IMG/VR virus record: IMGVR_UViG_3300029955_000013
Location: 1 to 64,000 of that record
Strand: one strand, 5' to 3'
Origin: a virus
DNA: 64,000 nt
Shown here piece by piece: positions 43,385 through 60,381 of the stretch (its first letter is position 1; each line of letters starts with the position of its first letter). The notes under the pieces are model-generated. The model had not been told where the DNA came from and made no database searches. It worked only from the letters and a program-made list of their open reading frames with translations. Both the position numbers and the translations under genes were made by a program.

Positions 43385-43799
43385 GGGGCCAAACAGGTTA
43401 TCGACTTAACGGTGTATGAGTCAGTAGTCATGCAGGGACAATTCGAATTGAGTTCCTCTAATAAATACATTCGATGCTATAAACGCAAAAAACAAAAGAA
43501 TCGCTGAAGGCGGCGCAATTCTAAGAAACATTTTCAGCAAGTCCGAAGCACCTTGTGCTATCGCAGCCTAATAAGCTTGCTGGAGAGTGCGCAAACTACT
43601 AAGTGTTTGCCAAGTGTGGTCGGGTAAATGTGGTTTCGCTTTTCTGCCATTGAGCGTAACTGCAGCACTTAGCAAAATGCTGTTATACCGAGATATAAAT
43701 GCAATCTGATATTCTCCTGGAAGAAACCAGCGATAAGCATGTGAGTTCCTACAGAACGTAAACGTTAAACACGAGGGTTCGACTCCCTCTGGCTCCACC
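43385..43799 (+). ncRNA. ssrA: tmRNA (ssrA), phage-encoded
   Basis: 5' GGGGCCA (43385-43391) pairs fully with 3' TGGCTCC (43790-43796) including one G-U; T-arm GAGGG-TTCGACT-CCCTC directly before it; D-analogue AACAGGTTATCGAC after the 5' strand. Length ~413 nt, near the normal range. A GTAGTCATGCAGGG segment echoes the conserved region of Bacteroidota tmRNAs. The tag reading frame ends APCAIAA followed by two stop codons at 43569; read back to a GCA at 43485 it would be 28 codons, longer than the usual ~8-20, so the resume codon may lie further in. tmRNA rescues stalled ribosomes and tags products for proteolysis. It sits between a membrane-protein gene and a GIY-YIG gene. CCA is not encoded. 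Confidence 0.85.
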
Positions 43800-43816
43800 G
43801 AACCTAAATTTAATAG

Positions 43817-47208: not shown

Positions 47209-47284
47209 GGGAAAATCGCATAGTCAGGTCTATTGCCTCTGCCTTCCAAGCAGGTGTTCGTCGGTTCGAATCCGTCTTTTCCCT
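47209..47284 (+). tRNA. tRNA-Gly (TCC)
   Basis: Acceptor GGGAAAA/TTTTCCC, T-arm TTCGAAT, anticodon loop CTTCCAA. Just upstream of the GlyRS-like gene. CCA not encoded. Confidence 0.85.
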
Positions 47285-47340
47285 CACACGGGGCTCAGAT
47301 ACAAAGGTATCGTCTGCCCATGTTCTTTGACATATTATTA

Positions 47341-47421
47341 AGCCATGGTGGCACAGTGGTCGACTGCACCGGTCTTGTAAACCGGAATACAACACGTGGG
47401 TTCGAATCCCACCCATGGCTC
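47341..47421 (+). tRNA. tRNA-Thr (TGT)
   Basis: Acceptor AGCCATG/CATGGCT, anticodon stem CCGGT/ACCGG with loop CTTGTAA, T-arm GTGGG-TTCGAAT-CCCAC. The variable region is about 10 nt, slightly long. Confidence 0.85.
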
Positions 47422-47426
47422 ATTAT

Positions 47427-47498
47427 CATCCTGTAGTCTAACGGTTAGGACGTCAGATTTTCACTCTGGAGATGGGGGTTCGATTCTCCCCAGGATGG
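47427..47498 (+). tRNA. tRNA-Glu (TTC)
   Basis: Acceptor CATCCTG/CAGGATG, loop TTTTCAC, T-loop TTCGATT. A GluRS-like gene is encoded at 50679. Confidence 0.85.
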
Positions 47499-47531
47499 CG
47501 ATTTTTAAAAGCTAATTTATAAATTCGTTTT

Positions 47532-48251
47532 ATGGAAAATCTTTATGACATTAACGGCCTCGTTTTCTGGAGCAAGAGGGAGATACAGTTTAGGAGGTAT
47601 GCGCAGGAATTTTTTTCGAGGGAGATAAGTGACCTGCTCATATTTGAGAACAAGAGCTGGTCTTTCCATGAGACTGAAGGCCCGCTGCTCATTCCTAAGT
47701 CCTTAATCAACGCCGATTATACCAACGAGGACATTTGGGTACAGGAAGTAATTGGCGACGATAACGAGCTCGTATTGAGGCCTGAGACTACTCCAAGCTC
47801 TTTCCGGTATGCGGTTTCTTTGATAAATAACTATGTTTCGCTCCCACCTATGGTTGTGGAGCAGACCGGCAAGTCATTCAGGCGGGAGCAGGATCAGGTC
47901 TCAAAGAACATGAGGCTCAAGGAATTCTACCAGCAGGAGTTCCAGTGCATTTATGCGGCGGACACCTTTAATGATTATCAGTCTAAGATATTGCCCGGCT
48001 TGGTGGCGGTTTTCCAAAAGCTGATTGGTAAGCCTTGCAGGATGGTAGATAGCGACAGGCTGCCTTCTTACAGCTTAAGGACTGTCGATGTGGAGGTGAA
48101 TAATGGTAACAAGTGGATGGAGGTTTGTTCTGTTTCAAAACGTACGGATTTTCCTATTCAAGTTAAGTTTGGTTCCAAGGAACCGAAGCCTATGCTGGTT
48201 CTCGAGATCGCGATAGGCCTTGACAGGTGCGTTTACAATTACTTTTTATAA
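47532..48251 (+). CDS. Minimal class II aminoacyl-tRNA synthetase, GlyRS-like
   Basis: 239 residues. Motif 2 region: L-R-P-E-T (~82-86), then G-K-S-F-R-R-E-Q (113-120) and a K-E-F-Y-Q-Q-E-F helix; E-V-C-S-V-S-K-R-T-D-F-P (~197-208) resembles the GlyRS segment with S-R-T-D-Y-D; motif 3 is E-I-A-I-G-L-D-R near the C-terminus. This order fits an alpha2-type GlyRS catalytic core. The anticodon-binding domain is absent (normal GlyRS ~450+ residues). Three tRNA-Gly genes are nearby, one just upstream. ThrRS/ProRS-like alternatives cannot be fully excluded. Confidence 0.7.
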   Translation: MENLYDINGLVFWSKREIQFRRYAQEFFSREISDLLIFENKSWSFHETEGPLLIPKSLINADYTNEDIWVQEVIGDDNELVLRPETTPSSFRYAVSLINNYVSLPPMVVEQTGKSFRREQDQVSKNMRLKEFYQQEFQCIYAADTFNDYQSKILPGLVAVFQKLIGKPCRMVDSDRLPSYSLRTVDVEVNNGNKWMEVCSVSKRTDFPIQVKFGSKEPKPMLVLEIAIGLDRCVYNYFL

Positions 48252-48267
48252 TATTTTGCGGCCGAAA

Positions 48268-48340
48268 AGCATTTGTAGTTCAGTGATAGAACATGCCTCT
48301 CGTAAAGGTAAAACAGCAGTTTGATTCTGCTCTAATGCTC
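48268..48340 (+). tRNA. tRNA-Thr (CGT)
   Basis: Acceptor AGCATTT with TAATGCT (six pairs, one T-T), anticodon loop CTCGTAA, T-arm AGCAG-TTTGATT-CTGCT. Confidence 0.75.
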
Positions 48341-48371
48341 ATAAAGTTTTATTACTCTGGGGATTTCGATG

Positions 48372-48379
48372 TACATTTG
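48372..48379 (+). promoter_or_regulatory. Host-type -7 box (TACATTTG) before gene 48397
   Basis: TAnnTTTG match 17 nt before the ATG at 48397, giving a very short leader. Possible internal promoter of the island. Confidence 0.5.
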
Positions 48380-48396
48380 CTTTGAAACATTATTCT

Positions 48397-48915
48397 ATGT
48401 ACAACATAAACAAGCGAGCGTTGGATATAAGGAAGATGTTTGGTGAGATTGCAGACATGAACAGTCCTTATGCTGGAACTCTGGATCTCGTTGTTAGGGA
48501 GGAAAAGATTTTCTGCATACTTGCCGAGTCGGTTAGCCAAACGCAGGCGAACTTCATGGTTCAAGAAATCTCAATGTCTTTCTTCCAGGACACGAAGAAC
48601 ATGTTGCTGTCGCAGGCCAAACTGATGCAGAATTTCATAGACACTTATTCTTCGTACGGTCCTGAGTTTAAGATAATAGAAGGGCAGCGAATGGCGTACC
48701 AGAATATGCTTAATTCAATAAATGGTTTGATCGAAGATGTTGACTCACATATAGAATTGTACACTCAATATATTGCGACCAACAACATAATAAAGAAAAG
48801 TATGAAGAAGACTATGAGGGAATGGAAGAAGAACGGTTTTCCTGATCGTTTTGCCGACTCGAGAGATATTCAGATAGTTCCAGACATAATGGGTAATGGT
48901 ACCACACCACCATAA
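48397..48915 (+). CDS. Unknown helical protein
   Basis: 172 residues from the ATG at 48397 (frame open to a TTG at 48382 inside the promoter). Predominantly helical, with R-A-L-D-I-R-K-M-F-G-E-I and many Met/Gln. The C-terminal segment is basic then Pro-ending. Not recognised. Lies between tRNA-Thr(CGT) and tRNA-Glu(CTC). Confidence 0.5.
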   Translation: MYNINKRALDIRKMFGEIADMNSPYAGTLDLVVREEKIFCILAESVSQTQANFMVQEISMSFFQDTKNMLLSQAKLMQNFIDTYSSYGPEFKIIEGQRMAYQNMLNSINGLIEDVDSHIELYTQYIATNNIIKKSMKKTMREWKKNGFPDRFADSRDIQIVPDIMGNGTTPP

Positions 48916-48923
48916 ATTAAAAT

Positions 48924-48995
48924 GCTCCGCTCTTCTAACGGTTAGGATGTGACCCTCTCACGGTTACGATACGGGTTCGATTCCCGTGCGGAGTA
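48924..48995 (+). tRNA. tRNA-Glu (CTC)
   Basis: Acceptor GCTCCGC/GCGGAGT, anticodon stem TGACC/GGTTA with loop CTCTCAC, T-arm CGGG-TTCGATT-CCCG. Confidence 0.8.
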
Positions 48996-49010
48996 CAAAA
49001 AATAATTGAA

Positions 49011-49208
49011 ATGGGTTGGAAATGTACGCAGATTTTGACGAGACAGGAGGCGATAAATTTGATTGTTAGGTTGTCTGATGTGAGCATCTTGGAGAGCCTT
49101 TCTGACGACGATTTGTCAAACGTGGTTGACGGATTTTGTGGAGATAACATGGATATGCCTTATTATGGCTGCAACTTCATGGTCTCCGATGTTATAGATA
49201 ATGATTAA
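49011..49208 (+). CDS. Unknown 65-residue protein
   Basis: Acidic small protein (L-S-D-V-S-I-L-E-S-L-S-D-D-D-L) ending Val-Ile-Asp-Asn-Asp. Starts 15 nt after a tRNA and ends 3 nt before the next. Not recognised. Confidence 0.5.
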   Translation: MGWKCTQILTRQEAINLIVRLSDVSILESLSDDDLSNVVDGFCGDNMDMPYYGCNFMVSDVIDND

Positions 49209-49211
49209 ATA

Positions 49212-49285
49212 AGCAGGAATAGCACAATGGCCAGTGTACGGGTTTGCCAAATCTGATATGGGAGTTCGATTCTCCCCTCCTGCTC
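49212..49285 (+). tRNA. tRNA-Gly (GCC), copy 1
   Basis: Acceptor AGCAGGA/TCCTGCT, loop TTGCCAA, T-loop TTCGATT. The anticodon stem uses two G-T pairs. Confidence 0.8.
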
Positions 49286-49368
49286 TGTGTGTGCAAATAA
49301 AGTTCGAATCTTTACCTTATGTACCGGTTAGGGTAGGGTTAGTTCAATTGGTAGAACGGCACAGTGTC
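49286..49368 (+). other. Possible circularly permuted tRNA (3' half before 5' half) or two tRNA remnants
   Basis: Between tRNA-Gly and tRNA-Met. First part: TGTGC then T-arm AAAG-TTCGAAT-CTTT (49299-49313) and ACCTTAT. Second part: GTAGGGT (49333-49339), TA, D-arm GTTC-loop-GAAC and GCACA (49359-49363), then GTGTC. GTAGGGT pairs with ACCTTAT (two G-U) and GCACA pairs perfectly with TGTGC, so the two halves in reversed order could form a cloverleaf with loop GTGTC, i.e. anticodon GTC (Asp). The ends coincide with the neighbours' processing sites. The TG-rich leader makes the anticodon-stem match less decisive; two decayed tRNA pieces remain the simpler alternative. Confidence 0.4.
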
Positions 49369-49441
49369 GGGCATGTAACTCAGCGGTTAGAGTAGTTCGC
49401 TCATAACGAAAAGGTCGTAGGTTCGATTCCTACCTCGCCCA
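49369..49441 (+). tRNA. tRNA-Met or tRNA-Ile2 (CAT)
   Basis: Loop CTCATAA, T-arm GTAGG-TTCGATT-CCTAC. The acceptor GGGCATG/CTCGCCC has two mismatches and the anticodon stem has one. Because AUA codons are common in this genome, lysidine-modified Ile2 is an alternative to elongator Met. Confidence 0.7.
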
Positions 49442-49461
49442 CCTTAAAAGCAAGAATACGA

Positions 49462-49671
49462 ATGGATAAAAATGAGTTAAAGAAGGTTATTTACAAGACA
49501 CAACCGATTGCGATTTTGCTTAATGTCAGGAAAGACGGATTGTCTTATGCTGCGAGTGTCGATAACAAGATAGTAAAGTTCTTTATACCATACGATGAGA
49601 TTGGTGAAGTGGTTTGGTTTGCAGAGATGCCGGCAAAGTTGCTGATAAGGTATTTGATAGATGTTGATTAA
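49462..49671 (+). CDS. Unknown 69-residue protein
   Basis: Small alpha/beta-type protein (P-I-A-I-L-L-N-V-R-K-D-G-L-S-Y-A-A) following tRNA CAT. Nine nt separate it from the next gene. Not recognised. Confidence 0.5.
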   Translation: MDKNELKKVIYKTQPIAILLNVRKDGLSYAASVDNKIVKFFIPYDEIGEVVWFAEMPAKLLIRYLIDVD

Positions 49672-49680
49672 ATATTTTTT

Positions 49681-49962
49681 ATGGAAGCCAAAGAGAAAAG
49701 ATTTCAGGGCCCTAATGGCGAGTTCGTACCGAGTAAACCGCTCAAGAAAGGCTACCTTTCTATAAAGCAAGCTGATGAAATATGTGAGTGGGTTTATTGT
49801 CACGACTCGTTTAGCGACGAAGAGAAGTTAAAAATGATACTTGGGGTGGAGACGCTGATCGGGGACATAATATCTGAGAACCTTGGAGACTTCAATGTGG
49901 CTTATGTTCCAACCTGGTCAACAAAGTTTAATGACAAAACGCCAATATCGTCTAACGGTTAG
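49681..49962 (+). CDS. Unknown protein whose 3' end overlaps a tRNA gene
   Basis: 93 residues, helical, with D-E-I-C-E-W-V-Y and L-I-G-D-I-I-S-E-N-L. The last seven codons and the TAG stop lie inside the following tRNA-Glu (stop in its D-loop), so mRNA and tRNA processing are mutually exclusive on one transcript. Confidence 0.55.
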   Translation: MEAKEKRFQGPNGEFVPSKPLKKGYLSIKQADEICEWVYCHDSFSDEEKLKMILGVETLIGDIISENLGDFNVAYVPTWSTKFNDKTPISSNG

Positions 49963-50013
49963 GATTGCTCGTTTTCAGCGAGAAAGATGTCGGTTCGAAT
50001 CCGTCTATTGGTT
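49941..50013 (+). tRNA. tRNA-Glu (TTC), second copy
   Basis: Acceptor GCCAATA/TATTGGT, loop TTTTCAG, T-loop TTCGAAT. Overlaps the 3' end of the preceding CDS by 22 nt. Confidence 0.75.
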
Positions 50014-50098
50014 CAAAACTTGGAGGAATCTGGGTCTATCCTGAATTAATAAAGTGCGAGCAAGTGTACATATCTCGCCGCAATAAAGTAAGAGGGAT

Positions 50099-50170
50099 CG
50101 TGGATTAGCTCAGTGGTAGAGTAGCAGGCTGATGGACTGTTGGTCGGTGGTTCAAATCCACCATCCACAA
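50099..50170 (+). tRNA. tRNA-Ile (GAT), copy 1, with C1-A72
   Basis: D-stem GCTC/GAGT, T-arm GGTGG-TTCAAAT-CCACC, loop CTGATGG. The standard fold gives CGTGGAT/ATCCACA with a C1-A72 mismatch, normally an initiator feature, and a G-A pair closing the anticodon stem. Confidence 0.7.
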
Positions 50171-50252
50171 CAAACCAGATAGGAATGTCTGGTGTGCTCT
50201 GGTAATGAGAGTGTGAATAAGCGCGAATAAAACACACTGGTAAGAAACAGAG

Positions 50253-50324
50253 TGTACTATAGGGTAGTGGTAGCCCGTCGGCATCAACAGCCGAAGATCT
50301 CAGGTTCGATTCCTGGTAGTGCAA
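50253..50324 (+). tRNA. tRNA with anticodon CAA (Leu), class I shape
   Basis: Acceptor TGTACTA/TAGTGCA, anticodon stem TCGGC/GCCGA with loop ATCAACA, five-nt variable loop, T-loop TTCGATT. Leu tRNAs normally have a long variable arm; this one does not. Confidence 0.75.
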
Positions 50325-50330
50325 CAATTT

Positions 50331-50669
50331 ATGGCTGAATATTATCATATAACTAATAGTAAAAACCTTAGTAATATCCTTACGGAAGGCCTGATACCAA
50401 ACAAGGGATATGGCATGAGCCGTAGGTTAATAAAGCATAACAAAAACTTTATTACGGATAATATTGCCTACATAATTCATAAGCAGATAGGCTTCAAAAG
50501 GTTTATTACAAAAGATTATGTAGTTCTTAATATCGAGCCATACGGTTTAAATATCAAAGAACACACTTATTGGGATCATATAAACCATAAACATGAAGTT
50601 GCAAAGCATGAGTTTGTTTGTTTTGACGTAATATTACCGAACAAAATTAGTGTAATGCAGAACAATTAA
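50331..50669 (+). CDS. Small ART/KptA-like protein
   Basis: 112 residues from the ATG seven nt after the tRNA (a GTG at 50319 would be inside the tRNA). Y-Y-H-I-T-N-S-K-N-L-S-N-I-L-T-E-G-L-I-P-N-K is the entry motif of RNA 2'-phosphotransferase/ADP-ribosyltransferase-like domains, followed by Y-V-V-L-N-I and a closing F-D-V-I-L-P-N-K-I-S-V. KptA/Tpt1 removes the 2'-phosphate left by some tRNA-ligation pathways; other small ART families modify nucleic acid or proteins. Context between tRNAs and near an RNA ligase favours RNA-related work, but this is inference. Confidence 0.5.
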   Translation: MAEYYHITNSKNLSNILTEGLIPNKGYGMSRRLIKHNKNFITDNIAYIIHKQIGFKRFITKDYVVLNIEPYGLNIKEHTYWDHINHKHEVAKHEFVCFDVILPNKISVMQNN

Positions 50670-50678
50670 AATAATTTT

Positions 50679-51551
50679 ATGAACACACGTATTGCGCCTT
50701 CCCCAACAGGCTTTTTTCATCTGGGGACTGCACGGACAGCTTATCACAACTGGCTTGTGGCTCGCGCAACGGGTGGCTTGTTCACCCTGAGGATCGACGA
50801 CACCGACGACGACAGGAACGATGAGGGTCATGTACAGATGATCTACGACTGCATGGACTGGCTTGGTCTCGATTATGACGATACTTTCAGGCAGAGCGAC
50901 CGGAACAAGATTTATGTTGATTACGCTCAGTTCCTTTTGGACATTGATTATGCTACTGTTGCCGACAATGGTGCTATAATGTTTAGATTTCGTGATGAAG
51001 ATTTAATTCACTTTTTTAACGACACTATCGCCGGCAAGATAGAAACTAAGCAGGATGACATCGACAATCTTAGGAGCCTTGTTCTTATGAAGTCTGATGG
51101 TAACCCTACTTATAACTTCTGTTCCATTGTCGACGACTACCTAAGCAAGATAGACTGGATAATTCGTGGCGCCGATCACATAAAGAATACGATAAAACAG
51201 CTACATGTCATAGAGGCAGTTCAGTCTTTGGATAATCCGGTTAATTATTGGAAACCAAAGTTCACCCATGTGGGCCTTATACACGACATGAGCAACAAGA
51301 AGCTGTCCAAGAGGACCGGTGCGAAAAGCGTGCTCGACTACAAGAACGAAGGCGTAAAGCCGGGTGCTCTGCTCAACACGCTGCTTAGGATTGGCTGGGC
51401 GCCTACCGACCCGAACTTCGACTCGAAGCATAAGATCGTGACGAAGGACATGGCGGTGGACATGATACTCAAGGAAGGTAACTTCAGGTCTGCTCCCGGT
51501 AAGTTCGATCCGATGAAACTCGCATACTACAATAAAAAGCATAGTAATTAA
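50679..51551 (+). CDS. Compact glutamyl-tRNA synthetase-like protein
   Basis: 290 residues, class I. R-I-A-P-S-P-T-G-F-F-H-L-G-T (HIGH-type at 14-17), R-I-D-D-T-D at ~38-43, W-I-I-R-G-A-D-H at ~160-167, and K-L-S-K-R at 208-212 followed by T-G-A. These are GluRS/GlxRS hallmarks. Typical bacterial GluRS is ~470-500 residues; the C-terminal anticodon-binding domain is missing, recalling the truncated Glu-Q-tRNA(Asp) synthetase, which modifies tRNA instead. Three tRNA-Glu genes lie upstream, so a charging role is plausible. Confidence 0.82.
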   Translation: MNTRIAPSPTGFFHLGTARTAYHNWLVARATGGLFTLRIDDTDDDRNDEGHVQMIYDCMDWLGLDYDDTFRQSDRNKIYVDYAQFLLDIDYATVADNGAIMFRFRDEDLIHFFNDTIAGKIETKQDDIDNLRSLVLMKSDGNPTYNFCSIVDDYLSKIDWIIRGADHIKNTIKQLHVIEAVQSLDNPVNYWKPKFTHVGLIHDMSNKKLSKRTGAKSVLDYKNEGVKPGALLNTLLRIGWAPTDPNFDSKHKIVTKDMAVDMILKEGNFRSAPGKFDPMKLAYYNKKHSN

Positions 51552-51556
51552 AAAAA

Positions 51557-51576
51557 TGTCGCACATCAGTGCGACA
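51557..51576 (+). promoter_or_regulatory. 5' leader hairpin of tRNA-Thr(GGT)
   Basis: Perfect stem TGTCGCAC (51557-51564) / GTGCGACA (51569-51576), ATCA loop, ends 3 nt before the tRNA. No T-run after it, so not a plus-strand terminator. Confidence 0.6.
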
Positions 51577-51579
51577 CTC

Positions 51580-51650
51580 GCCCGTATAATTTAATGGAAG
51601 ACTAATCCTTTGGTATGGGATATGCATCAGTTCGATTCTGATTATGGGCT
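51580..51650 (+). tRNA. tRNA-Thr (GGT, probable)
   Basis: Acceptor GCCCGTA/TATGGGC, T-arm ATCAG-TTCGATT-CTGAT. Best anticodon stem ATCCT/GGGAT leaves loop TTGGTAT (anticodon GGT, A37). A shifted reading would give TGG (Pro) but pairs poorly. Confidence 0.65.
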
Positions 51651-51666
51651 CATAAAATTTCAATTA

Positions 51667-51837
51667 ATGCAGTTATCGTTTGGTATTGGTGATACGGTTT
51701 ACGCGAACGTTGGTGGCCAGGAGATGAAAATATTGGATGTCTCTGGCAACACGTATATTTGTCAGGTAATTGTTGACGGTAAGACGGAAAAGGTTAACTT
51801 CGAAAAGGGAACAGTACACAAGAAAATAAGGAAATAA
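51667..51837 (+). CDS. Unknown 56-residue protein
   Basis: ATG at 51667 chosen because upstream in-frame starts fall within the tRNA. Beta-barrel-like pattern (G-D-T-V-Y-A-N-V-G-G-Q-E-M-K-I-L-D-V) suggestive of a small SH3/OB-like fold. Not recognised. Confidence 0.5.
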   Translation: MQLSFGIGDTVYANVGGQEMKILDVSGNTYICQVIVDGKTEKVNFEKGTVHKKIRK

Positions 51838-51876
51838 TTTATAAATGGAAAACATTCACGTCTCGTCTGGATAGCT

Positions 51877-51897
51877 CATCATTGATCAACAATGATG
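51877..51897 (+). promoter_or_regulatory. Hairpin covering the start codon of 51892
   Basis: CATCATTG (51877-51884) / CAATGATG (51890-51897), five-nt loop. The ATG at 51892 lies in the 3' strand, so translation could be controlled by its opening. Confidence 0.5.
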
Positions 51898-52095
51898 ACT
51901 ACAATTACAAGAACTCGATTTTGGAGAGTCGAGTGGATCCATAGAAATGGATACCGTGCACCACATTCGTTTGTGGAAGCAAAAAACAAGAAAGAGGCTG
52001 TGAAAATAGCCCAAGATAATTCCAGGTTTACTGATTTTCCCAAGACTTGGTCCTTTAATCTTGTCCGCTTAGTGGAGAAGGGAGAGGAAGAATAA
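51892..52095 (+). CDS. Unknown 67-residue basic protein
   Basis: R-T-R-F-W-R-V-E-W-I-H and E-A-K-N-K-K-E-A-V-K-I-A-Q-D-N: a compact alpha/beta pattern seen in small phage proteins. Start codon is inside a perfect hairpin. Function unknown. Confidence 0.5.
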   Translation: MMTTITRTRFWRVEWIHRNGYRAPHSFVEAKNKKEAVKIAQDNSRFTDFPKTWSFNLVRLVEKGEEE

Positions 52096-52186
52096 ATGAC
52101 TTAAAACCGAACGGGTTTGTGGACAAGCAACAACCTGCTCCTGGCCAGCAATGGTATATGGAAAAACCACTTTAAATATGTTGTCG

Positions 52187-52210
52187 TGAAAGGGGGCGGT
52201 GACCCTTTCA
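52187..52210 (+). promoter_or_regulatory. 5' leader hairpin of tRNA-Gly(GCC) copy 2
   Basis: 8-bp stem TGAAAGGG (52187-52194) / CCCTTTCA (52203-52210), ends 3 nt before the tRNA; no T-run. Confidence 0.6.
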
Positions 52211-52213
52211 AAT

Positions 52214-52284
52214 GCGGGAGTAGCACAATGGTAGTGCACGGGCTTGCCAAGTCTGATACGAGGGTTCGATTCCCTTCTCCCGCT
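52214..52284 (+). tRNA. tRNA-Gly (GCC), copy 2
   Basis: Acceptor GCGGGAG/CTCCCGC, loop TTGCCAA, T-loop TTCGATT. Sequence is close to copy 1 at 49212. Confidence 0.85.
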
Positions 52285-52319
52285 CAGGGTTAAAAAGAGT
52301 TTAAAATAAAAACAATTCT

Positions 52320-52592
52320 ATGAGTAATTTAAAGATACCTTCTTTTGAAGAGGTATTAGCGAATGATGGCAAGGCTGAAGACCTTGAGCTTATTAAGATA
52401 GAAAAGCAATCTCAGCTTGACACCCAGGTCAGGACCATAGAGGTTAAGATAGCAAGGGCACGCAAGCTTTTTGCGAAGTCTGTGATCGACCCGAAGATTG
52501 ACACTTTGGCGATTGCCTCAGAACTAAAGATATTGACTGCGGAACTCGAGCTTGCGAAGGAAATAAGAGAGGCGGTTTTCCCAAAAAATTAA
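52320..52592 (+). CDS. Unknown coiled-coil protein
   Basis: 90 residues, almost entirely helical with heptad-like Leu/Ile spacing (I-E-V-K-I-A-R-A-R-K-L-F; L-K-I-L-T-A-E-L-E-L-A-K-E-I). Not recognised; five nt before the next gene. Confidence 0.5.
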   Translation: MSNLKIPSFEEVLANDGKAEDLELIKIEKQSQLDTQVRTIEVKIARARKLFAKSVIDPKIDTLAIASELKILTAELELAKEIREAVFPKN

Positions 52593-52596
52593 TTTG

Positions 52597-53376
52597 ATGA
52601 GCGTTATTGATGAACTTTGGAAACCTCAGCAAGAATCCGTTCACGATTATGACGACACTGTAAAAGAACTGCATCCGTACAAGGATTATATCCAGGAGAA
52701 GTATCGGCCGGAGCCTTGCGATTACAACAATTCGCCGCCTCGTTTTTATTATGGTTATGGCAACAGTTCTATTTTAATCACCAAGCAGCGTGGAAGGCGT
52801 AGGCATCTTGGGAAGCATATCATCATCAAAAAGACGCTTAAAAGCACCTATCTCGATTTTGAGCTTCCTGACAAACTTTACGTTACTGTAGAGGGTTTGA
52901 TCGTACATGAAAGCGATTTCTATTGTACTGATGACTCGTTCATGGAGGCGGAATACTTTACTAACAAGTCCATTTACCTGCAGTTTAAAGACGTTAGTTG
53001 CGACATCAACTTAATAGCTTATTTCTTGACCAATAAGGAGTATGATGATTACGAGAAGGAAGACTATCGGTATAGGAGCATGGGCATGATGAGTCCTGTG
53101 CTGGAAATTTACAAGTATCTGCACGAGGGTCGTTCGAAGATAGAGATCGTTTACTGCAATACCTTCTTTGATGATCCGAACAAGCATGTCATAAATAACA
53201 TGTTAAATACGAGTAAGTTTTTGATAGACCCGGTGGCCCCAATCGTACAAAGTGTTTGTGATCTCGGCCGGCATCTGTTCGTCAGCTCTAATGGTTACAT
53301 CTGTCACTGGAAGTTTTATACCAGATTAGATACAGACTTACTGATAAGACATGCTAAAAAACTTGTATTTCTATGA
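52597..53376 (+). CDS. Unknown 259-residue protein
   Basis: ATG at 52597 used (a TTG lies one codon earlier). Tyr/Asp-rich N-terminus (Y-I-Q-E-K-Y-R-P-E-P), central basic R-G-R-R-R-H-L-G-K-H, and mixed alpha/beta rest. Stop overlaps the kinase ATG (ATGA), suggesting joint function. No motif recognised. Confidence 0.5.
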   Translation: MSVIDELWKPQQESVHDYDDTVKELHPYKDYIQEKYRPEPCDYNNSPPRFYYGYGNSSILITKQRGRRRHLGKHIIIKKTLKSTYLDFELPDKLYVTVEGLIVHESDFYCTDDSFMEAEYFTNKSIYLQFKDVSCDINLIAYFLTNKEYDDYEKEDYRYRSMGMMSPVLEIYKYLHEGRSKIEIVYCNTFFDDPNKHVINNMLNTSKFLIDPVAPIVQSVCDLGRHLFVSSNGYICHWKFYTRLDTDLLIRHAKKLVFL

Positions 53377-53864
53377 ACATATTTGTGCTCGGCGGTACCA
53401 AGTCCGGTAAATCCACCATTGCGAAGTATATTGCTGATACGTATGGCTTCAAACTCATACAGATGTCCAAGCCGCTGAAAGATAGGTTCGAGCGTGGGGA
53501 TCTGAACATAGACGTTTACACGAACATGTTGGTTAAGACCACGCTTAGTTACATAGGTTCCAAAGAGAGGCGTAAATCTGAGTATTTCTTGAATTACGCT
53601 TTGCTGGAAATGGGGCCTAATAATGTGTTCGACGGTGTGCGGAACCCTCGTGACTTCATGAGGCTTTTCAATCACTTCGAGGACATGGTTATAAAGATGC
53701 CTGGCGAAGGCATAAATGCTTTTGAGGTGGATGGCTTAAGAGCTATATTCGGCTGCCACAGGTATATGTACAAGTACATGAGCGCAAAGCCGCTGATCAA
53801 GTACCATTACGATCTGGAGCTATCCATAGAGGAGAATTTCCAGAACAACAAAATAGTCATTTAA
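53373..53864 (+). CDS. P-loop nucleotide/nucleoside kinase-like protein
   Basis: 163 residues. Walker A G-G-T-K-S-G-K-S-T at 7-15, a following L-I-Q-M-S-K-P-L-K, and N-V-F-D-G-V-R-N-P-R-D-F (~86-97) as in dNMP-kinase/adenylate-kinase-like phage proteins where an Arg in this segment contacts substrate. Could supply dNTP precursors or phosphorylate RNA 5' ends; size fits a dNMP kinase. Coupled to the gene before it. Confidence 0.65.
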   Translation: MNIFVLGGTKSGKSTIAKYIADTYGFKLIQMSKPLKDRFERGDLNIDVYTNMLVKTTLSYIGSKERRKSEYFLNYALLEMGPNNVFDGVRNPRDFMRLFNHFEDMVIKMPGEGINAFEVDGLRAIFGCHRYMYKYMSAKPLIKYHYDLELSIEENFQNNKIVI

Positions 53865-53873
53865 AAGTAGCTT

Positions 53874-55085
53874 ATGGTTTCTAAATTCGCAATGGACGAC
53901 GCTTATGCTGTACAGGCAGACATTATAGAAGGTTGGTACACGAAGTACAAGTCCATGGATTTGCCTAACGGCTTCAAGAGGGTGTTGTATAGCTTTTCTA
54001 AAAGCGGCGTATCTGTTGCTCTCGGCAGGAATGAAAAATACGGGTATTTCATCTGCGCTTACGGTCAGGGCGAATATTCTTTCGTGATGACAGAAGCTGA
54101 TAGCGAGAACATTCCTGCCGAGGAAGTCTTTGACGTTAAAACTAAGGAAGGATTTATAAAGCATTTCGAGAGGTTTTGCAGGGAGTATAATTACTTGGAT
54201 TTCGAGGTAGTCGATAATGTAAGAGCCTATGATGACACGACGCTTTTCTGCCCGGCCGGGATGCAGAAGTATAAGAACGTGTTTAAGGCGGAGTGCCCAG
54301 AGGATGCTGACAAGGCCGTAAGGCGTCAGTACATGAAGCTAAATGAGAGTGTTATAGCAAATATTCAACCTTGCATAAGGATGAACGATTTGGATGATAT
54401 TGGTGACGGCACGCATTTGCTTTACTTCAACATGATGGGCCTTTTTGCATTTAGGACTCCTGGCTTTGGTGTTAGGCATGCTGTAAAATTTTGGCTTGAT
54501 TTCCTTGAGACGATCGGCTTGAAACCGGATCTTGTTACTGTCCACCCAGACAAGCAAGATTGGATATTTTATTACCAAGATGAAACGGTAGAGCAGAAAT
54601 ATGTAGACGATTTTCTTCAGTATAACGGGCCTGATTTCCTGCTCGATCCAGATTGCACGTGGACTGATGGCGAGATTGGAGGTTACTGTACGGAGTTCTA
54701 CATAAAGGACGTGGAGATAGGCAACATTGTGAATCCGCTTGGTAACTGCATAGATTGCGGCTTTGGCCTCGAGAGGATTCTGTATATACTCAATAATGAG
54801 TTGACTATCGCAACCGATTTGGACACGCTTAAGGAAACCATACTTAAGATATTAGACAGCGGTTACACGCCATCTAATCTCAAACAGGGCTATGTTTTAA
54901 GGAAGCTGTTGAGGGAGTTCGTCAAGAAGGGCGGCGAGATGGATCACGAGGTGTTTCTCGACGAGAAGGATAGGCAGCGAAAAATATATGACAGGTGGCT
55001 GCTGCTCAAGGATAAGCACAAGGACAAGAGCCCTGAATGGTGGTATGATACGCACGGGATTGATTTGAAAATGATAAACGGTTAA
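53874..55085 (+). CDS. Compact alanyl-tRNA synthetase-like protein
   Basis: 403 residues, class II. After a ~110-residue N-terminal extension the AlaRS core appears: D-T-T-L-F-C-P-A-G-M-Q-K-Y-K-N-V-F (121-137), I-Q-P-C-I-R-x-N-D-L-D-D-I-G (~164-177) with T-H-L-L-Y-F-N-M-M-G (~180-189), and motif 3 C-G-F-G-L-E-R (295-301); V-L-R-K-L-L-R-E lies near 340. The editing and C-Ala domains of normal ~875-residue AlaRS are missing. No tRNA-Ala is seen in the window, so the substrate may be a host tRNA or a gene outside. Confidence 0.8.
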   Translation: MVSKFAMDDAYAVQADIIEGWYTKYKSMDLPNGFKRVLYSFSKSGVSVALGRNEKYGYFICAYGQGEYSFVMTEADSENIPAEEVFDVKTKEGFIKHFERFCREYNYLDFEVVDNVRAYDDTTLFCPAGMQKYKNVFKAECPEDADKAVRRQYMKLNESVIANIQPCIRMNDLDDIGDGTHLLYFNMMGLFAFRTPGFGVRHAVKFWLDFLETIGLKPDLVTVHPDKQDWIFYYQDETVEQKYVDDFLQYNGPDFLLDPDCTWTDGEIGGYCTEFYIKDVEIGNIVNPLGNCIDCGFGLERILYILNNELTIATDLDTLKETILKILDSGYTPSNLKQGYVLRKLLREFVKKGGEMDHEVFLDEKDRQRKIYDRWLLLKDKHKDKSPEWWYDTHGIDLKMING

Positions 55086-55088
55086 TTT

Positions 55089-55406
55089 ATGACCAAAGCG
55101 CCTTTTGACGTCTTCTTTACTTTTGATATAAGTTTGAATATTGTGTCTTATGATTCGGATAGTGATACAATGAATTGGTTTAGCCGGTCTGTTCGTAATC
55201 AGATTAAGCTTCACGAGGAAGTTGGAAAGAAGATGGAAGACAGAGGCTATCTTTATGGCTGGTATGAAATATTGGAGACTGATTTTAACTTTCTCACACC
55301 GGCTAAAGAGTCGATCCAGGATAAAAAGGTAAAAGTAAAAGTCGGCGCCTATAAGGATGAACAGTTTATGTATTCTAAGAAAGAATTGGAAAAAATGGTA
55401 AGTTGA
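55089..55406 (+). CDS. Unknown 105-residue protein
   Basis: Three nt after the AlaRS-like stop. N-terminal F-D-V-F-F-T-F-D-I-S-L-N-I strand pair, then a helical/charged C-terminus. Not recognised; probably co-transcribed with the synthetase. Confidence 0.5.
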   Translation: MTKAPFDVFFTFDISLNIVSYDSDSDTMNWFSRSVRNQIKLHEEVGKKMEDRGYLYGWYEILETDFNFLTPAKESIQDKKVKVKVGAYKDEQFMYSKKELEKMVS

Positions 55407-55416
55407 TAAGTAAGAT

Positions 55417-55492
55417 GGGCGATTACTCCCTCACCCTTATAAGGTGTTGAAAGGATAGTTGGTACAGTTCGGTTCGATCCCGAAATCGCCTA
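55417..55492 (+). tRNA. Irregular tRNA-like gene, possible anticodon TAT (Ile)
   Basis: Acceptor GGGCGAT/ATCGCCT and T-arm TTCGG-TTCGATC-CCGAA are good and total length is 76 nt. The only anticodon-like arm (CACC-CTTATAA-GGTG) sits just 7 nt after the acceptor where the D-arm should be, and a D-arm-like AGTTGGTACAG follows it. Either a D-armless, rearranged or decayed tRNA. TAT would read AUA, which is abundant here. Confidence 0.5.
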
Positions 55493-55494
55493 CA

Positions 55495-55971
55495 ATGATT
55501 TACGATGAATTGTGTGGAGAGATTTATGACGAGGTGATAAAGTTTAATATTTTTAAACAGTACCTCGAGAATTACGATGTAGATTTGCCTAAGTTAAGAG
55601 TTGAGACGCTCGATTTTTGTTCACAGACAGTCGATGGCAGGGATGCGGATTATATGGCCAGGATTGCCGCGGCAAAGCCGAAGATTTATTTCGCTACTCT
55701 TATAAAGAGCAAGATACTTGGCGAGCTCGTTAAAATCAAGAAACGTCAAGATTTACTCGAGAAATGGCAGGCATCAGGCATATTGGATGGCTTACACCAG
55801 GGAGTTAACACTAATATTGTTGCATTGATGGAAAGCCAGTCGGAGCAGAGTATTACTGAAAACAGGAGCGCTGAGTTCTATTGGGACACAGTAAGGCTTC
55901 CGCTCGTAAGGAGTGTGTTAATTGATTCTTTAATCAAAGAAGCAGAGCATGACCAGGAAGAAAAGGTATGA
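55495..55971 (+). CDS. Unknown 158-residue protein
   Basis: ATG at 55495, three nt after the tRNA (in-frame starts further up lie inside it). Helical with K-P-K-I-Y-F-A-T-L-I-K-S-K and S-A-E-F-Y-W-D-T-V. Not recognised. The 3' end overlaps the next gene by 23 nt. Confidence 0.5.
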   Translation: MIYDELCGEIYDEVIKFNIFKQYLENYDVDLPKLRVETLDFCSQTVDGRDADYMARIAAAKPKIYFATLIKSKILGELVKIKKRQDLLEKWQASGILDGLHQGVNTNIVALMESQSEQSITENRSAEFYWDTVRLPLVRSVLIDSLIKEAEHDQEEKV

Positions 55972-56329
55972 ACTTACGAAATCGTCTGCCGATAAATTGA
56001 CAGACGCCATTGGGTGCAAGATAGATTTTAAGATAAAAGAGCTTGTAGTTTATCTTAACTTAAATAAGTTCGTTACATTTGCATCTTGTCAGGGACATAG
56101 GAGTCACGGCTTGCGTTACCCTTGGATTGATTTCGACATAAAGTCATACAATGGTTTATTCGATTTTATAAAGAGGCACAAAATCGTCGGCCTTGAAATA
56201 AAGCTCTTGGAAAGCGGTGATGGTTTCGTTATGAGGCTACAACCGGTAGACAAGACCAGGATAAAGGCGGCGAGGGATATTTTTCACATGCTTGAGAAGA
56301 AGTTAAGTAAAAGTTTTTGGAATAAATAA
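55949..56329 (+). CDS. Unknown basic protein with S-C-Q-G-H motif
   Basis: 126 residues. L-N-L-N-K-F-V-T-F-A-S-C-Q-G-H at ~38-50 and P-W-I-D-F-D-I look like a small conserved phage family in which a Cys-x-Gly-His follows a strand. Enzyme activity is uncertain. Start is inside the preceding gene in another frame. Confidence 0.5.
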   Translation: MTRKKRYELTKSSADKLTDAIGCKIDFKIKELVVYLNLNKFVTFASCQGHRSHGLRYPWIDFDIKSYNGLFDFIKRHKIVGLEIKLLESGDGFVMRLQPVDKTRIKAARDIFHMLEKKLSKSFWNK

Positions 56330-56380
56330 GTGATTCTTAGTTTCATCGCTGTAGGGATTCTATTAATCAAAACAGTTAAA

Positions 56381-56734
56381 ATGAAAGATCTAAGAATGGC
56401 CTTTGAGGGTTTGAGGAAAAACCCAGTATTCGTTGAAAATTTCTCTTGTGTAGAAGACGTCTTTAATGGTTTTGTCACATCGGAAGAACAAGAGCAGGGA
56501 GTAGAGATACTATATGCTGCTTACCATAGACCAGATTGGGAAGGCTATGCTACAGTTTACTTCTACAATGCGATCTCCGGAAAGTATTACGAGGTACACG
56601 GCTCACACTGTTCCTGCTACGGCTTGGAAGGTCAATGGGTCCCAGAGGAATTATCGTTAGAGGGATTGCAATACATCCTCGACAATGGTAATTCACACGA
56701 GTATGACGACTTTAGAGAAATCTTGGGAAGTTAA
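56381..56734 (+). CDS. Conserved phage-type protein with G-S-H-C-S-C-Y-G-L-E-x-Q-W
   Basis: 117 residues from the ATG at 56381 (a GTG at 56330 is an alternative). D-W-E-G-Y-A-T-V-Y-F-Y-N, then E-V-H-G-S-H-C-S-C-Y-G-L-E-G-Q-W-V-P-E-E. This signature recurs in proteins of large phages; function unknown. The His/Cys cluster may bind metal. Confidence 0.6.
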   Translation: MKDLRMAFEGLRKNPVFVENFSCVEDVFNGFVTSEEQEQGVEILYAAYHRPDWEGYATVYFYNAISGKYYEVHGSHCSCYGLEGQWVPEELSLEGLQYILDNGNSHEYDDFREILGS

Positions 56735-56740
56735 AAAAAT

Positions 56741-56783
56741 GGTATCAAAGTATTGGGTGAGATTCCCAGTATTCCCTGATACC
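56741..56783 (+). promoter_or_regulatory. 5' leader hairpin of tRNA-Ile(GAT) copy 2
   Basis: Outer stem GGTATCA (56741-56747) / TGATACC (56777-56783), inner TGGG/CCCA. Ends 4 nt (AAAC) before the tRNA; no T-run. Confidence 0.6.
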
Positions 56784-56787
56784 AAAC

Positions 56788-56860
56788 AGGCCTGTATATC
56801 ATCGGTTAGATAGCCATGCTGATAACATGGAAGCAGTTGGTTCGACTCCAACCTGGCCTA
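56788..56860 (+). tRNA. tRNA-Ile (GAT), copy 2
   Basis: Acceptor AGGCCTG/CTGGCCT (one T-T), anticodon stem CCATG/CATGG with loop CTGATAA, T-arm GTTGG-TTCGACT-CCAAC. Confidence 0.85.
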
Positions 56861-56875
56861 CACTAAAAGAATTTT

Positions 56876-58042
56876 ATGAAAGTAGATGTTAACCAGTTCA
56901 AGGAGATACCTTCTCCTCACGGAGTTGGATTGTGTGTCTACGGCGGCATGAGCGATGAAATCAAGGCATGGACCGAGTATCACGATATAAAGACAGAATT
57001 CCACGGAAGATTTACTAATTTTCTGTTTGACGGCCAGGATCTCGATAATTGTTTCAACGAGGGGAAGGTGTACGATTACGTGGATGGTTTTTCGCCGAAT
57101 CTTAATAAGCATTTGCACCTCGGTCATGCGTCTAATTTTGTAATAGCGAAAGCGTTGCAGAACATGGGAATTGGCAAGAAGTACATTGCGAACCTTGGTG
57201 ATACTGTTACTGGAGCTGTTGATAAGTTCGAGGCGCTCGAGGCTTTGAGTGACCTTTGGGACAAGTTTGATTACAAGGTCGATAAGATTTACTTCGCTAC
57301 ACAATTGGTAGGCGATGTTGAGATGGAGGATGGTACTGGCGATTATGTCGGCACGAAGGTTTTCGACGTGAACGGTCAGAAGATAGTTGGCCAGAAGAGC
57401 AACGGTAATTATAGTTACTTTTACCATGACGTCGTTCTCGCGAGCAAGTTGAAAGGCGAGACTCTGTATATGACCGGTTTCGAGCAGAAGGAGCACTTTG
57501 AGAGCTTGAAGTGTCTTTACCCCGGCACTAACCACCTGATGCTTGGCCTCGTGACGATCGACGGCAGGAAGATGTCGAGTAGCGAGGGTAACGTGATTAT
57601 GTTGGCGGACGTCATGGACACGCTCAGGACCGAATTTGGAGACGATCACCTTGCTTGGAATGTTTTGAGTGGTTATATACTCAAGTCAGACGTGGACTCG
57701 GTTAAGGACATCAATATGGCCAACATAGACAACCCACGACAGTCTCTCGGTTTGTACTTCAGTTACACGCTCGCAAAGTTGAAGAGCGCCGGCATGAATG
57801 TGGAGCTGAAGGAAAAGTTTAATTCTTTTCGGATGCAGTACAAGTTCTTGAAGGCAAAGACGAACCTGCAGCCGAGAATATTGTTCGACGGCATTTTCGA
57901 TGTTGCAAAGAAGATTAGTACTCTATACGTAAACCACCACATAGCAGGCAACAAGAAAAACCAGGAGCTGTACCAGCCTTTGATGGAGGATTTGCTGCTC
58001 GGCATGGTAAAGCTTGGCATGTTTGACGTAGATAAGGTTTAA
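56876..58042 (+). CDS. Arginyl-tRNA synthetase-like protein
   Basis: 388 residues, class I. S-P-N-L-N-K-H-L-H-L-G-H (73-84, HIGH-type), L-Y-M-T-G-F-E-Q-K-E-H-F (~197-208) and G-R-K-M-S-S-S-E-G-N-V-I-M-L (~230-243) match ArgRS, whose KMSKS loop reads K-M-S-x-R-x-G-N-V. A helical C-terminal stretch could be a reduced DALR-type domain. Normal ArgRS is ~550-600 residues; the N-terminal Add1 domain is absent. No tRNA-Arg is seen here, although AGG codons are frequent in the phage genes. Follows tRNA-Ile directly. Confidence 0.75.
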   Translation: MKVDVNQFKEIPSPHGVGLCVYGGMSDEIKAWTEYHDIKTEFHGRFTNFLFDGQDLDNCFNEGKVYDYVDGFSPNLNKHLHLGHASNFVIAKALQNMGIGKKYIANLGDTVTGAVDKFEALEALSDLWDKFDYKVDKIYFATQLVGDVEMEDGTGDYVGTKVFDVNGQKIVGQKSNGNYSYFYHDVVLASKLKGETLYMTGFEQKEHFESLKCLYPGTNHLMLGLVTIDGRKMSSSEGNVIMLADVMDTLRTEFGDDHLAWNVLSGYILKSDVDSVKDINMANIDNPRQSLGLYFSYTLAKLKSAGMNVELKEKFNSFRMQYKFLKAKTNLQPRILFDGIFDVAKKISTLYVNHHIAGNKKNQELYQPLMEDLLLGMVKLGMFDVDKV

Positions 58043-58053
58043 AGATAGTGCAC

Positions 58054-58143
58054 CGGGATGGGATACCGGAACAGAATGCGATCCTCAAAGAATATAGCAA
58101 TTAGGCCGCCTGTGGCTATGTGTTAAATGGTATGAGGCATCCC
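58054..58143 (+). ncRNA. Structured leader before tRNA-Ile(GAT) copy 3
   Basis: Closing stem GGGATG (58054-58059) / CATCCC (58138-58143), inner ATAGC/GCTAT stem with a GCC/GGC tip. No coding frame. Ends 6 nt before the tRNA. Could be a processing signal or small RNA. Confidence 0.4.
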
Positions 58144-58149
58144 AACAAT

Positions 58150-58223
58150 GGGGAGGTGGCCAAATGGTGAAGGCACTTGACTGATAATCAAGAGATGTGT
58201 GAGTTCGAGCCTCACTCTCCCCA
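58150..58223 (+). tRNA. tRNA-Ile (GAT), copy 3
   Basis: Acceptor GGGGAGG/TCTCCCC, anticodon stem CTTGA/TCAAG with loop CTGATAA, T-arm GTGAG-TTCGAGC-CTCAC. Confidence 0.85.
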
Positions 58224-58233
58224 CGAGGCAATA

Positions 58234-58324
58234 GCAGGTAGCTCATGTACGTACCCTTCTGCAGACGTGGTCAAATCGTGAGCGAAGCATCAATCGTACC
58301 TGTCCACTGTAACGTGCAGTAGTA
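58234..58324 (+). ncRNA. Possible structured RNA between two tRNAs
   Basis: GCAGGTA (58234-58240) pairs with TACCTGT (58297-58303), and the adjacent GCTC (58241-58244) with GAGC (58280-58283). The enclosed CTGCAGACGTGG partly complements a CCACTGTAACGTGCAG just downstream, hinting at alternative folds. The spacing is tRNA-like but no T-loop exists. No gene here otherwise. Confidence 0.35.
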
Positions 58325-58346
58325 GCTGACTAAAAATACGAGACAA

Positions 58347-58364
58347 GTTGCGGAGAGACGCAAC
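58347..58364 (+). promoter_or_regulatory. 5' leader hairpin of the class II Leu-type tRNA
   Basis: Stem GTTGCG (58347-58352) / CGCAAC (58359-58364), six-nt loop; then AAAC and the tRNA. Confidence 0.6.
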
Positions 58365-58368
58365 AAAC

Positions 58369-58447
58369 GGTGAGGTGATGGAATTGGCAGACATTGGGGA
58401 TAGGATTCCCCTGCGCAAGCGTGGAGGTTCGAGTCCTCCCCTTACCA
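58369..58447 (+). tRNA. Class II Leu-type tRNA, anticodon uncertain (TAG or AGG)
   Basis: Acceptor GGTGAGG/CCTTACC, D-arm like bacterial tRNA-Leu (TGATGGAATTGGCAGACA), variable arm with CGC-AA-GCG, T-arm GGAGG-TTCGAGT-CCTCC. The anticodon arm is GGGGA-TAGGAT-TCCCC: a six-nt loop, or a seven-nt loop if the last pair is a wobble. Confidence 0.75.
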
Positions 58448-58462
58448 CTTAAATTTAACGTT

Positions 58463-58729
58463 ATGACAAGTTTATTGAAGTTTAACAAGTCTGTTACCGA
58501 CAGGTTTACGCCTGCCGAGATCGGTGACATGTTGGTTGGCGAAAAGAAGTATGCCTTAGAGGTTGAGGGTGGTAACCGCGAGCCTACGGGCATCTTTAAG
58601 GACGAGGATGGCGACCTGTATGTTACCATACATGGTTACAAGGTTGGCCGCACAGACCTCGAGGTAGAGTTCGTGGTATTTCCACAATATGACAATCACA
58701 CAATTTTTCAAGCGAGGGTACAGATTTAA
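58463..58729 (+). CDS. Unknown 88-residue protein
   Basis: ATG at 58463 (earlier in-frame starts lie in the tRNA). Beta-rich pattern with L-V-G-E-K-K-Y-A-L-E-V-E-G-G-N and D-L-Y-V-T-I-H-G-Y. Its TAA overlaps the ATG of the next mini-gene. Not recognised. Confidence 0.5.
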   Translation: MTSLLKFNKSVTDRFTPAEIGDMLVGEKKYALEVEGGNREPTGIFKDEDGDLYVTIHGYKVGRTDLEVEFVVFPQYDNHTIFQARVQI

Positions 58730-58812
58730 TGGTAAAGAAGATATTGAGATTTTTCGGTTTGTGTAAACCAGAGAGCGTAGAAGATTTTAAACAGCGTATA
58801 TCCAATAGGTAA
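58729..58812 (+). CDS. 27-residue basic peptide
   Basis: M-V-K-K-I-L-R-F-F-G-L-C-K-P... ending N-R. Linked by one-base TAATG overlaps on both sides (58729 and 58812), which strongly suggests it is translated as part of a coupled series. Amphipathic, basic. Confidence 0.5.
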   Translation: MVKKILRFFGLCKPESVEDFKQRISNR

Positions 58813-59234
58813 TGGCAAACTATTTCACGGTTCGGGATCTTATTGAGTTCATAACGAATAACAACATCCCAATGGATGCAAGGATTTATATGCAGCGTGT
58901 GGAAGACGTCTATTTCAACGGAGTGGATATTGGTGGGTGTGGCGGCTATGTGGACGATAACGGTGTTCGCAGTTGTTTTCCGCCTGGTTCTAAAGCTGAT
59001 GGGTGGAAGACTGTCAAGAAAGAGGGTTATGCTTATCGTAAGGCTTTGGAGTTGAACAGAAGGGTAGATGCTGGAGATTTTCACAACAAGGAAGATTTCC
59101 CGGATCTGGAAGACCCTGAGGTTTTAAGGTCGAGCGAGGAAAGGCTCGAGGAGCTCAAGGAACAGTATTATCCTTGCTTCTCTCCGGTTTACTATGCTGA
59201 TCAGAAGGATTTGTTTTTGGATGCACACTATTAA
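58812..59234 (+). CDS. Unknown 140-residue protein
   Basis: Starts on the preceding stop. N-terminal V-R-D-L-I-E-F-I-T-N-N-N-I-P-M-D-A-R-I-Y is a motif found in many small phage proteins (a ligand-binding-like start). A C-terminal acidic/Lys helix ends with Y-Y-P-C-F-S-P. Not assigned. Confidence 0.5.
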   Translation: MANYFTVRDLIEFITNNNIPMDARIYMQRVEDVYFNGVDIGGCGGYVDDNGVRSCFPPGSKADGWKTVKKEGYAYRKALELNRRVDAGDFHNKEDFPDLEDPEVLRSSEERLEELKEQYYPCFSPVYYADQKDLFLDAHY

Positions 59235-59245
59235 ATAAAAATTAT

Positions 59246-59464
59246 ATGGGATTGGTAGTTAACGTTACTTCTAAAGAGATTATTAGTGGCAAGTTTATGA
59301 AAACGCTCATGAAGTTGCAGGGTTATATTCAGGAAGCCAAGGGTGACATTGAGGTTAGCCAGAGTTACAGTGCTAAAGCTGTGCACTCACGGATGGAGCG
59401 GATCATGGAACTTATGGAAGAAGACATGACCGCATTGGCAAACTCGATACAATTACCAGAATGA
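59246..59464 (+). CDS. Unknown 72-residue helical protein
   Basis: Mostly helical after a short strand (L-V-V-N-V-T-S-K-E-I-I-S). Stop overlaps the next ATG by four bases. Confidence 0.5.
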   Translation: MGLVVNVTSKEIISGKFMKTLMKLQGYIQEAKGDIEVSQSYSAKAVHSRMERIMELMEEDMTALANSIQLPE

Positions 59465-59706
59465 ACAAGTTTCTGCAAGAGGATTTTAAGGAAATTATTG
59501 ATCAGTTGTCAGAAAAGCTTGATCCAGGTAGCAAAAAAGTATTGCAAGAGGTGATAATGGATAATCTTGTCGAAATAAAAGAGAAATATCGTCTTTACAA
59601 GAATTCAGGCTCTGGCAGGATTAGCCTTAATTATACCCGTATTGCTATTGATTACTGGAGCCAAGTGCCTCATTTGATTGAGTTTCTTGAAAAATTTTTA
59701 GAGTAA
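59461..59706 (+). CDS. Unknown 81-residue helical protein
   Basis: Coupled to 59246 (ATGA). Charged helices (L-Q-E-D-F-K-E-I-I-D-Q-L-S-E-K-L). Ends one nt before a tRNA. Not recognised. Confidence 0.5.
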   Translation: MNKFLQEDFKEIIDQLSEKLDPGSKKVLQEVIMDNLVEIKEKYRLYKNSGSGRISLNYTRIAIDYWSQVPHLIEFLEKFLE

Positions 59707-59707
59707 T

Positions 59708-59780
59708 GGCACTGTAGACCAACGGGAGAGTCAACGGCTTTAAACCCCGTCAAGTGTCGGTTCGAGTCCGACCAGTGCTA
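59708..59780 (+). tRNA. tRNA with anticodon TAA (Leu), class I shape
   Basis: Acceptor GGCACTG/CAGTGCT, T-arm GTCGG-TTCGAGT-CCGAC, variable loop five nt. Standard spacing gives loop TTTAAAC (anticodon TAA) with a C-C mismatch closing the anticodon stem. Lacks the long Leu variable arm. Confidence 0.7.
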
Positions 59781-59794
59781 CAAAAAATAAAAGC

Positions 59795-60328: not shown

Positions 60329-60381
60329 TAAAGTCGGTGGCATTGTTTGACTTGTGATTTTTTAGTGTAATAAAGTCGGTG
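60326..60381 (+). repeat. 14-nt direct repeat pair
   Basis: TAATAAAGTCGGTG occurs at 60326-60339 and 60368-60381 in the gap after gene 59795. Meaning unknown; possibly remnant duplication. Confidence 0.5.

Follow-up and report, generated by a model that had tools for sequence, protein, structure and literature searches.

A phage-encoded tmRNA with a tag core shared among viral tmRNAs

The DNA analysed here, referred to as the window, is a stretch of 64,000 nucleotides (positions 1 to 64,000 of the IMG/VR virus record IMGVR_UViG_3300029955_000013, which has 83,900 bases in total). We found that it encodes a true tmRNA that belongs to the Rfam family RF00023, and that the tag of this molecule contains a core which, as indicated by its pattern of codon change, is conserved as a peptide among viruses. 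Phage tmRNAs and long tags are already known; the new element is the tag core and not the tag length. The tags added by tmRNA are usually regarded as host degrons. With a tag peptide that viruses conserve and that the searched bacterial genomes do not contain, the purpose of phage tmRNAs becomes a testable question: the peptide is defined, its partner can be sought, and infected cells can be examined for tagged products.

Results

Both ARAGORN and the RF00023 covariance model identified a one-piece tmRNA gene on the plus strand of the window (Table 1), as an earlier note on this DNA had proposed from the letters alone. The RF00023 match spanned positions 43385–43800 and the whole model (1–374), scoring 60.8 bits (E = 2.7e-21 in 64 kb) against a curated cut-off of 47 bits; the posterior probability of the alignment was low in the middle of the gene, from the tag through the downstream pseudoknots. 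The phage origin of the gene also holds, since the record carries a portal protein (phrog_213), a ClpP-like head-maturation protease and tail proteins typical of a tailed phage. An identical copy of the tmRNA is present in a second phage record of 58 kb (IMGVR_UViG_3300030508_000030), and a nucleotide search of the gene against cultured phages gave no match.

The tRNA-like domain lacks an anticodon arm. Its acceptor stem (GGGGCCA/TGGCTCC) is paired at 7/7 positions and includes G3·U70, which is the alanine identity pair. The T stem has 5/5 pairs and the D-arm analogue is GGTTATCGAC, which confirms the earlier description of these three elements as complete. At the 3' end of the gene the genome reads ACC and then G, so the CCA is only partly encoded and would be completed after trimming. 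The gene is followed directly by an imperfect inverted repeat that runs into the start of the next ORF, possibly a processing or termination element, and a scan for sigma-70 promoters gave no match at the tmRNA.

Table 1. Positions of the tmRNA elements and of neighbouring features in the window.
Feature	Start	End	Strand	Details
One-piece tmRNA (ssrA) gene	43385	43799	+	415 nt; ARAGORN and Rfam RF00023
Acceptor stem, 5' strand, GGGGCCA	43385	43391	+	Carries G3 of G3·U70; pairs 7/7 with 43790–43796
PK1 stem 1	43434	43457	+	AGGGAC 43434–43439 / GTTCCT 43452–43457
PK1 stem 2	43443	43474	+	TCGAAT 43443–43448 / ATTCGA 43469–43474
Tag frame, AKNKRIAEGGAILRNIFSKSEAPCAIAA	43485	43568	+	28 codons; resume codon GCA 43485–43487
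Conserved tag core, RIAEGGAILRNIF	43497	43535	+	Common to about 30 viral tmRNAs
Helix H5	43531	43586	+	TTTTCAGCAAGT 43531–43542 / GCTTGCTGGAGA 43575–43586; best helix of the region, in the MFE fold
Two stop codons, TAATAA	43569	43574	+	
Candidate long-range helix	43599	43672	+	CTAAGTGTT 43599–43607 / AGCACTTAG 43664–43672; 9 pairs; putative part of a downstream pseudoknot, region not above shuffles
Start of H2 3' strand, TAAGCATGT	43734	43742	+	Invariant in aligned relatives
T arm and acceptor 3' strand	43773	43796	+	GAGGG-TTCGACT-CCCTC, then TGGCTCC (U70)
Imperfect inverted repeat	43802	43856	+	Directly 3' of tmRNA; overlaps start of next ORF
Free-standing GIY-YIG/NUMOD3 homing endonuclease	43839	44762	+	Adjoins tmRNA; Pfam SegE_GIY-YIG, GIY-YIG, NUMOD3
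AlaRS-like class II catalytic core	53874	55085	+	403 aa; Pfam tRNA-synt_2c 4.7e-20; alaS TIGR00344 7.6e-21

The resume codon was placed at GCA because the coding part called by ARAGORN, including the two stops, corresponds to gene positions 101–190. This agrees with the codon and the 28-codon frame considered conditionally in the earlier note, as well as with the reported APCAIAA end and double stops. The context of the resume codon, TATAAAC/GCA (UAUAAAC/GCA in RNA), is common to the window and its relatives. The C terminus of the tag, AIAA, is small and hydrophobic; its final IAA had been considered uncommon, which does not hold, since the relatives described below end in VAA, IAA or LAA. The tag had also been described as unusually long. 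Its 28 residues are indeed at the high end of the 8–35 aa given for published tags in passages of PMC8012679, but such a length is not unprecedented. With published tags of up to 35 aa and viral tags in our set of up to 30–32, length was ruled out as the novelty of this molecule.

Pseudoknot PK1 (6 + 6 bp) is located where expected, after helix H2 and before the resume codon, and its score was not matched by any of 100 shuffles; most viral relatives have PK1 at the same position with different stem sequences. Helix H5, with 12 pairs, encloses the last part of the tag together with the stop codons. The earlier note had named the lack of a significant covariance-model hit, or missing pseudoknots, as evidence against a tmRNA: the hit is above the cut-off and PK1 is present, while the post-tag pseudoknots (PK2–PK4) of the window copy do not rise above background, as 60 of 300 shuffles scored at least as well as the best candidate of the region. 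A PK2-like fold occurs in many relatives, where its paired letters vary (GTAAC/GTTAC, GCTAT/ATAGC, GCTG/CAGC). The invariance of the H2 string in the aligned relatives should be read with the fact that the same string had served as the search key for them. Three members of the family (L056, L101 and L194) have tmRNA genes of 642–781 nt in which the stretch separating the tag from H2 is much longer and seems to contain repeated pseudoknot-like units and not an Rfam-recognised intron.

A search blind to the tag, using a pattern for the H2/T-arm region, returned at least 120 viral stretches. The tags called in them by ARAGORN fall into a short class of 8–15 aa and a long class of mostly 21–32 aa; we read many of the former as putatively host-type, for example in prophages adjoining the host ssrA. 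In this set, 15 long-tag loci have the relaxed core R[VI]xEGxAI[LI]xx[IL]F in common with the window. A scan directed at the core identified 28 viral loci besides the window phage, with tags ending in [VIL]AA; these partly overlap the tag-blind set, and some are near-duplicates of each other. Altogether the stricter core R[VI]AEGxAI[LI]xxIF, to which the window tag conforms, is common to about 30 other viral tmRNAs. The tRNA-like domains of the relatives are also intact: in about 20 of them the acceptor stems differ in sequence and keep every pair, the T stems are full, and G3·U70 is found in every relative whose limits could be set. Several relatives missed by ARAGORN exceed the Rfam cut-off.

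Comparison of the window tag with five close family tags gave 47–56 points, a range not reached by any of 2000 shuffles. For the tag-blind set together with the window (13 distinct core sequences), pS was 0.436 and pN 0.098, and the resulting pN/pS of 0.225 is somewhat favourable to our claim because sequences were treated as independent and members were picked by a relaxed peptide motif. The corresponding null had a mean of 1.03 and a minimum of 0.47 in 200 simulations, which indicates that the tag peptide itself is conserved. At the positions left free in the strict pattern (R, A, S), codons likewise change synonymously while the residue stays the same.

A degenerate DNA pattern for the core, run against 84,980 bacterial and archaeal species, gave 53 matches, none of which was a tmRNA tag; since the pattern was exact, it would have missed host tags whose core is changed. 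A tblastn search of the tag against cultured phages gave a chance match only, a weak negative because a Bxz1-type control tag also found nothing. At least two core carriers are crAss-like according to their portal, terminase or capsid proteins, and their structural gene set is unlike that of the window phage. Several of the best portal and terminase matches of these carriers are phages of Bacteroidota (Bacteroides, Flavobacterium), which makes this phylum their likely host group, and the tmRNA tags of Bacteroidota are 9–10 aa long in 28/28 sampled cases (best-scoring loci only). These observations suggest that the tag family is virus-only within the genomes searched and that phages have their own labelling code. 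The converse, that a bacterial lineage outside the genome collection has such a long tag and that phages captured its ssrA, seems improbable to us. Many hosts of uncultured phages are unsequenced and some bacteria do carry long tags (within the range in PMC8012679), but such an origin has to contend with the lack of any tag matching the core pattern in the 84,980 species searched, with the short tags sampled from the phylum to which the crAss-like carriers point, and with the retention of the tag across phages whose structural genes differ.

The portal protein of the window phage is remotely T4-type-like, with best matches in an uncultured huge phage, Microcystis phage Mel-JY01 and Flavobacterium phage immuto at about 30% identity or below. 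Its record has 27 tRNA genes over about 31 kb. These stand singly among ORFs (window 47209–60894 and L012 952–13945), and nearly all are without an encoded CCA. Also present are an RNA ligase and GlyRS-, GluRS-, AlaRS- and ArgRS-like ORFs, which are shortened and mostly reduced to cores. The AlaRS-like ORF matches AlaRS structures in the PDB with motifs 2 and 3; a single-sequence AlphaFold model of the protein was unusable (pLDDT 40). As 0/27 tRNA genes on this record, itself a fragment, are tRNA-Ala, no alanine acceptor other than the tmRNA accompanies the AlaRS-like ORF there, and the encoded protein is a possible candidate for its charging enzyme. We regard this pairing as a lead and not as proof. 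The ORF is found in only one of the 28 tmRNA-carrying records, that of the window, and the protein had no relatives in viral contigs.

Within the stretches compared, the only gene content common to the window phage and the other carriers is a homing endonuclease. Two other viral tmRNAs are followed, at a distance of about 1 kb, by distant relatives of the enzyme that adjoins the window tmRNA, so this enzyme could help to move the tmRNA gene between phages, which is speculation at this point.

Discussion

We consider it probable that the window encodes a working phage tmRNA that uses host SmpB and adds a virus-specific tag. The alanine-type tRNA-like domain, PK1, resume codon and tag frame are all complete as far as can be read from the gene. 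None of the 28 tmRNA-carrying records, including that of the window, yielded a phage SmpB, and the host protein would therefore have to recognise this tmRNA. Based on these features, the transcript would be processed during infection and given its CCA, and would then receive alanine from the host AlaRS or possibly from the phage AlaRS-like protein. The charged molecule would bind host SmpB and rescue ribosomes that have stalled on broken mRNA of the phage or the host, and the rescued chain would receive the 28-residue virus-type tag in place of the short host tag. Its C-terminal IAA should be recognised by a ClpXP-type protease, while the core R-[VI]-A-E-G-x-A-I-[LI]-x-x-[IL]-F is probably a contact site for a protease, an adaptor or another factor, which would be why it is kept. 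Redirection of stalled ribosomes or competition with host tagging, as suggested in the earlier note, is plausible.

A broader and more tentative proposal, which we judge possible and somewhat short of even, is that unrelated phages share a virus-owned tagging code. Under this proposal a specific factor, cellular or viral, would recognise the selected 13-residue core, rescue products would be sorted unlike host-tagged ones, and the window phage may pair the system with its own AlaRS-like enzyme.

A tag with a purpose other than degradation, which would stabilise or redirect rescued phage proteins, or compete with the host tag and thereby spare incomplete phage chains from host ClpXP, would account for a sequence and length far from those of the sampled Bacteroidota tags and for a core that is needless for a plain [hydrophobic]AA ClpX signal; since every core-bearing relative keeps [VIL]AA, the usual ClpX-type C terminus, we think this unlikely. 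It is less probable still that the captured ssrA is a passive passenger or a decoy, for example one titrating SmpB, without a tagging role: TLD-only viral tmRNAs do exist (DS6A, in passages of PMC4131195, and two huge phages described below) and the adjoining homing endonuclease could move the gene, but against this stand an unbroken tag frame closed by two stops and, across the family, selection on the peptide of a tag that a decoy would not need.

Compared with RF00023, the gene agrees in its full-length match, its TLD with G3·U70, PK1, resume codon, tag, H5 and H2; it differs in a 28-codon tag whose core was not found in bacterial genomes, in divergent post-tag pseudoknots and in a CCA that is not fully encoded. 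Phage-encoded tmRNAs have precedents. In passages of the relevant reports, one survey counts 402 phages (2.3%) with a tmRNA (PMC9004378), ten phages are listed with ssrA, one of them in the TLD-only form of DS6A (PMC4131195), and huge phages are described with tmRNA and SmpB (PMC7162821). Mycobacteriophages Bxz1, Cali and Wildcat, Bacillus phage G, Methylophilales phage Melnitz and the huge phages resemble the window phage as tailed phages with a tmRNA gene, often accompanied by tRNAs (PMC4131195, PMC9004378, PMC7162821), although the Melnitz tmRNA is a two-piece molecule (PMC9004378). Unlike the family reported here, the same passages describe no peptide-conserved tag family across phages, and we found no tag family shared between phages in the portions of the open-licence literature that our search covered.

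Flavobacterium phage FpV4, a cultured phage with a Bacteroidota host, offers a starting system with a long tag. Its tmRNA (KT876724.1 81947–82361; 58.2 bits) was missed by ARAGORN and has no annotated feature over it. The predicted tag of about 35 aa, GNTNNSVVSLEDNAQVEANMNMAFSLIREDVAVAA, ends in DVAVAA; it resembles that of the window as a long tag of a phage tmRNA and differs in being without the exact AEGxAILxxIF core.

Two huge phages, L303 (LR756508.1 414804–414915) and L304 (LR756511.1 2250–2386), carry a tmRNA-like gene of 111–136 nt beside a full tmRNA. These short genes have a complete tRNA-like domain with G3·U70 and no room for a normal tag region. They are similar to the TLD-only form of ssrA in phage DS6A, and a role as SmpB decoys is possible. 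The tag GRRKPLSW called by ARAGORN for LR756508 was rejected as implausible.

A second group of viral long tags (L055, L067, L071, L104, L106, L108, L109, L124 and others) reads DEMSTMTF[ED]DLM[SA]FVGADYA[LV]AA, with a related AEELSSFTF form.
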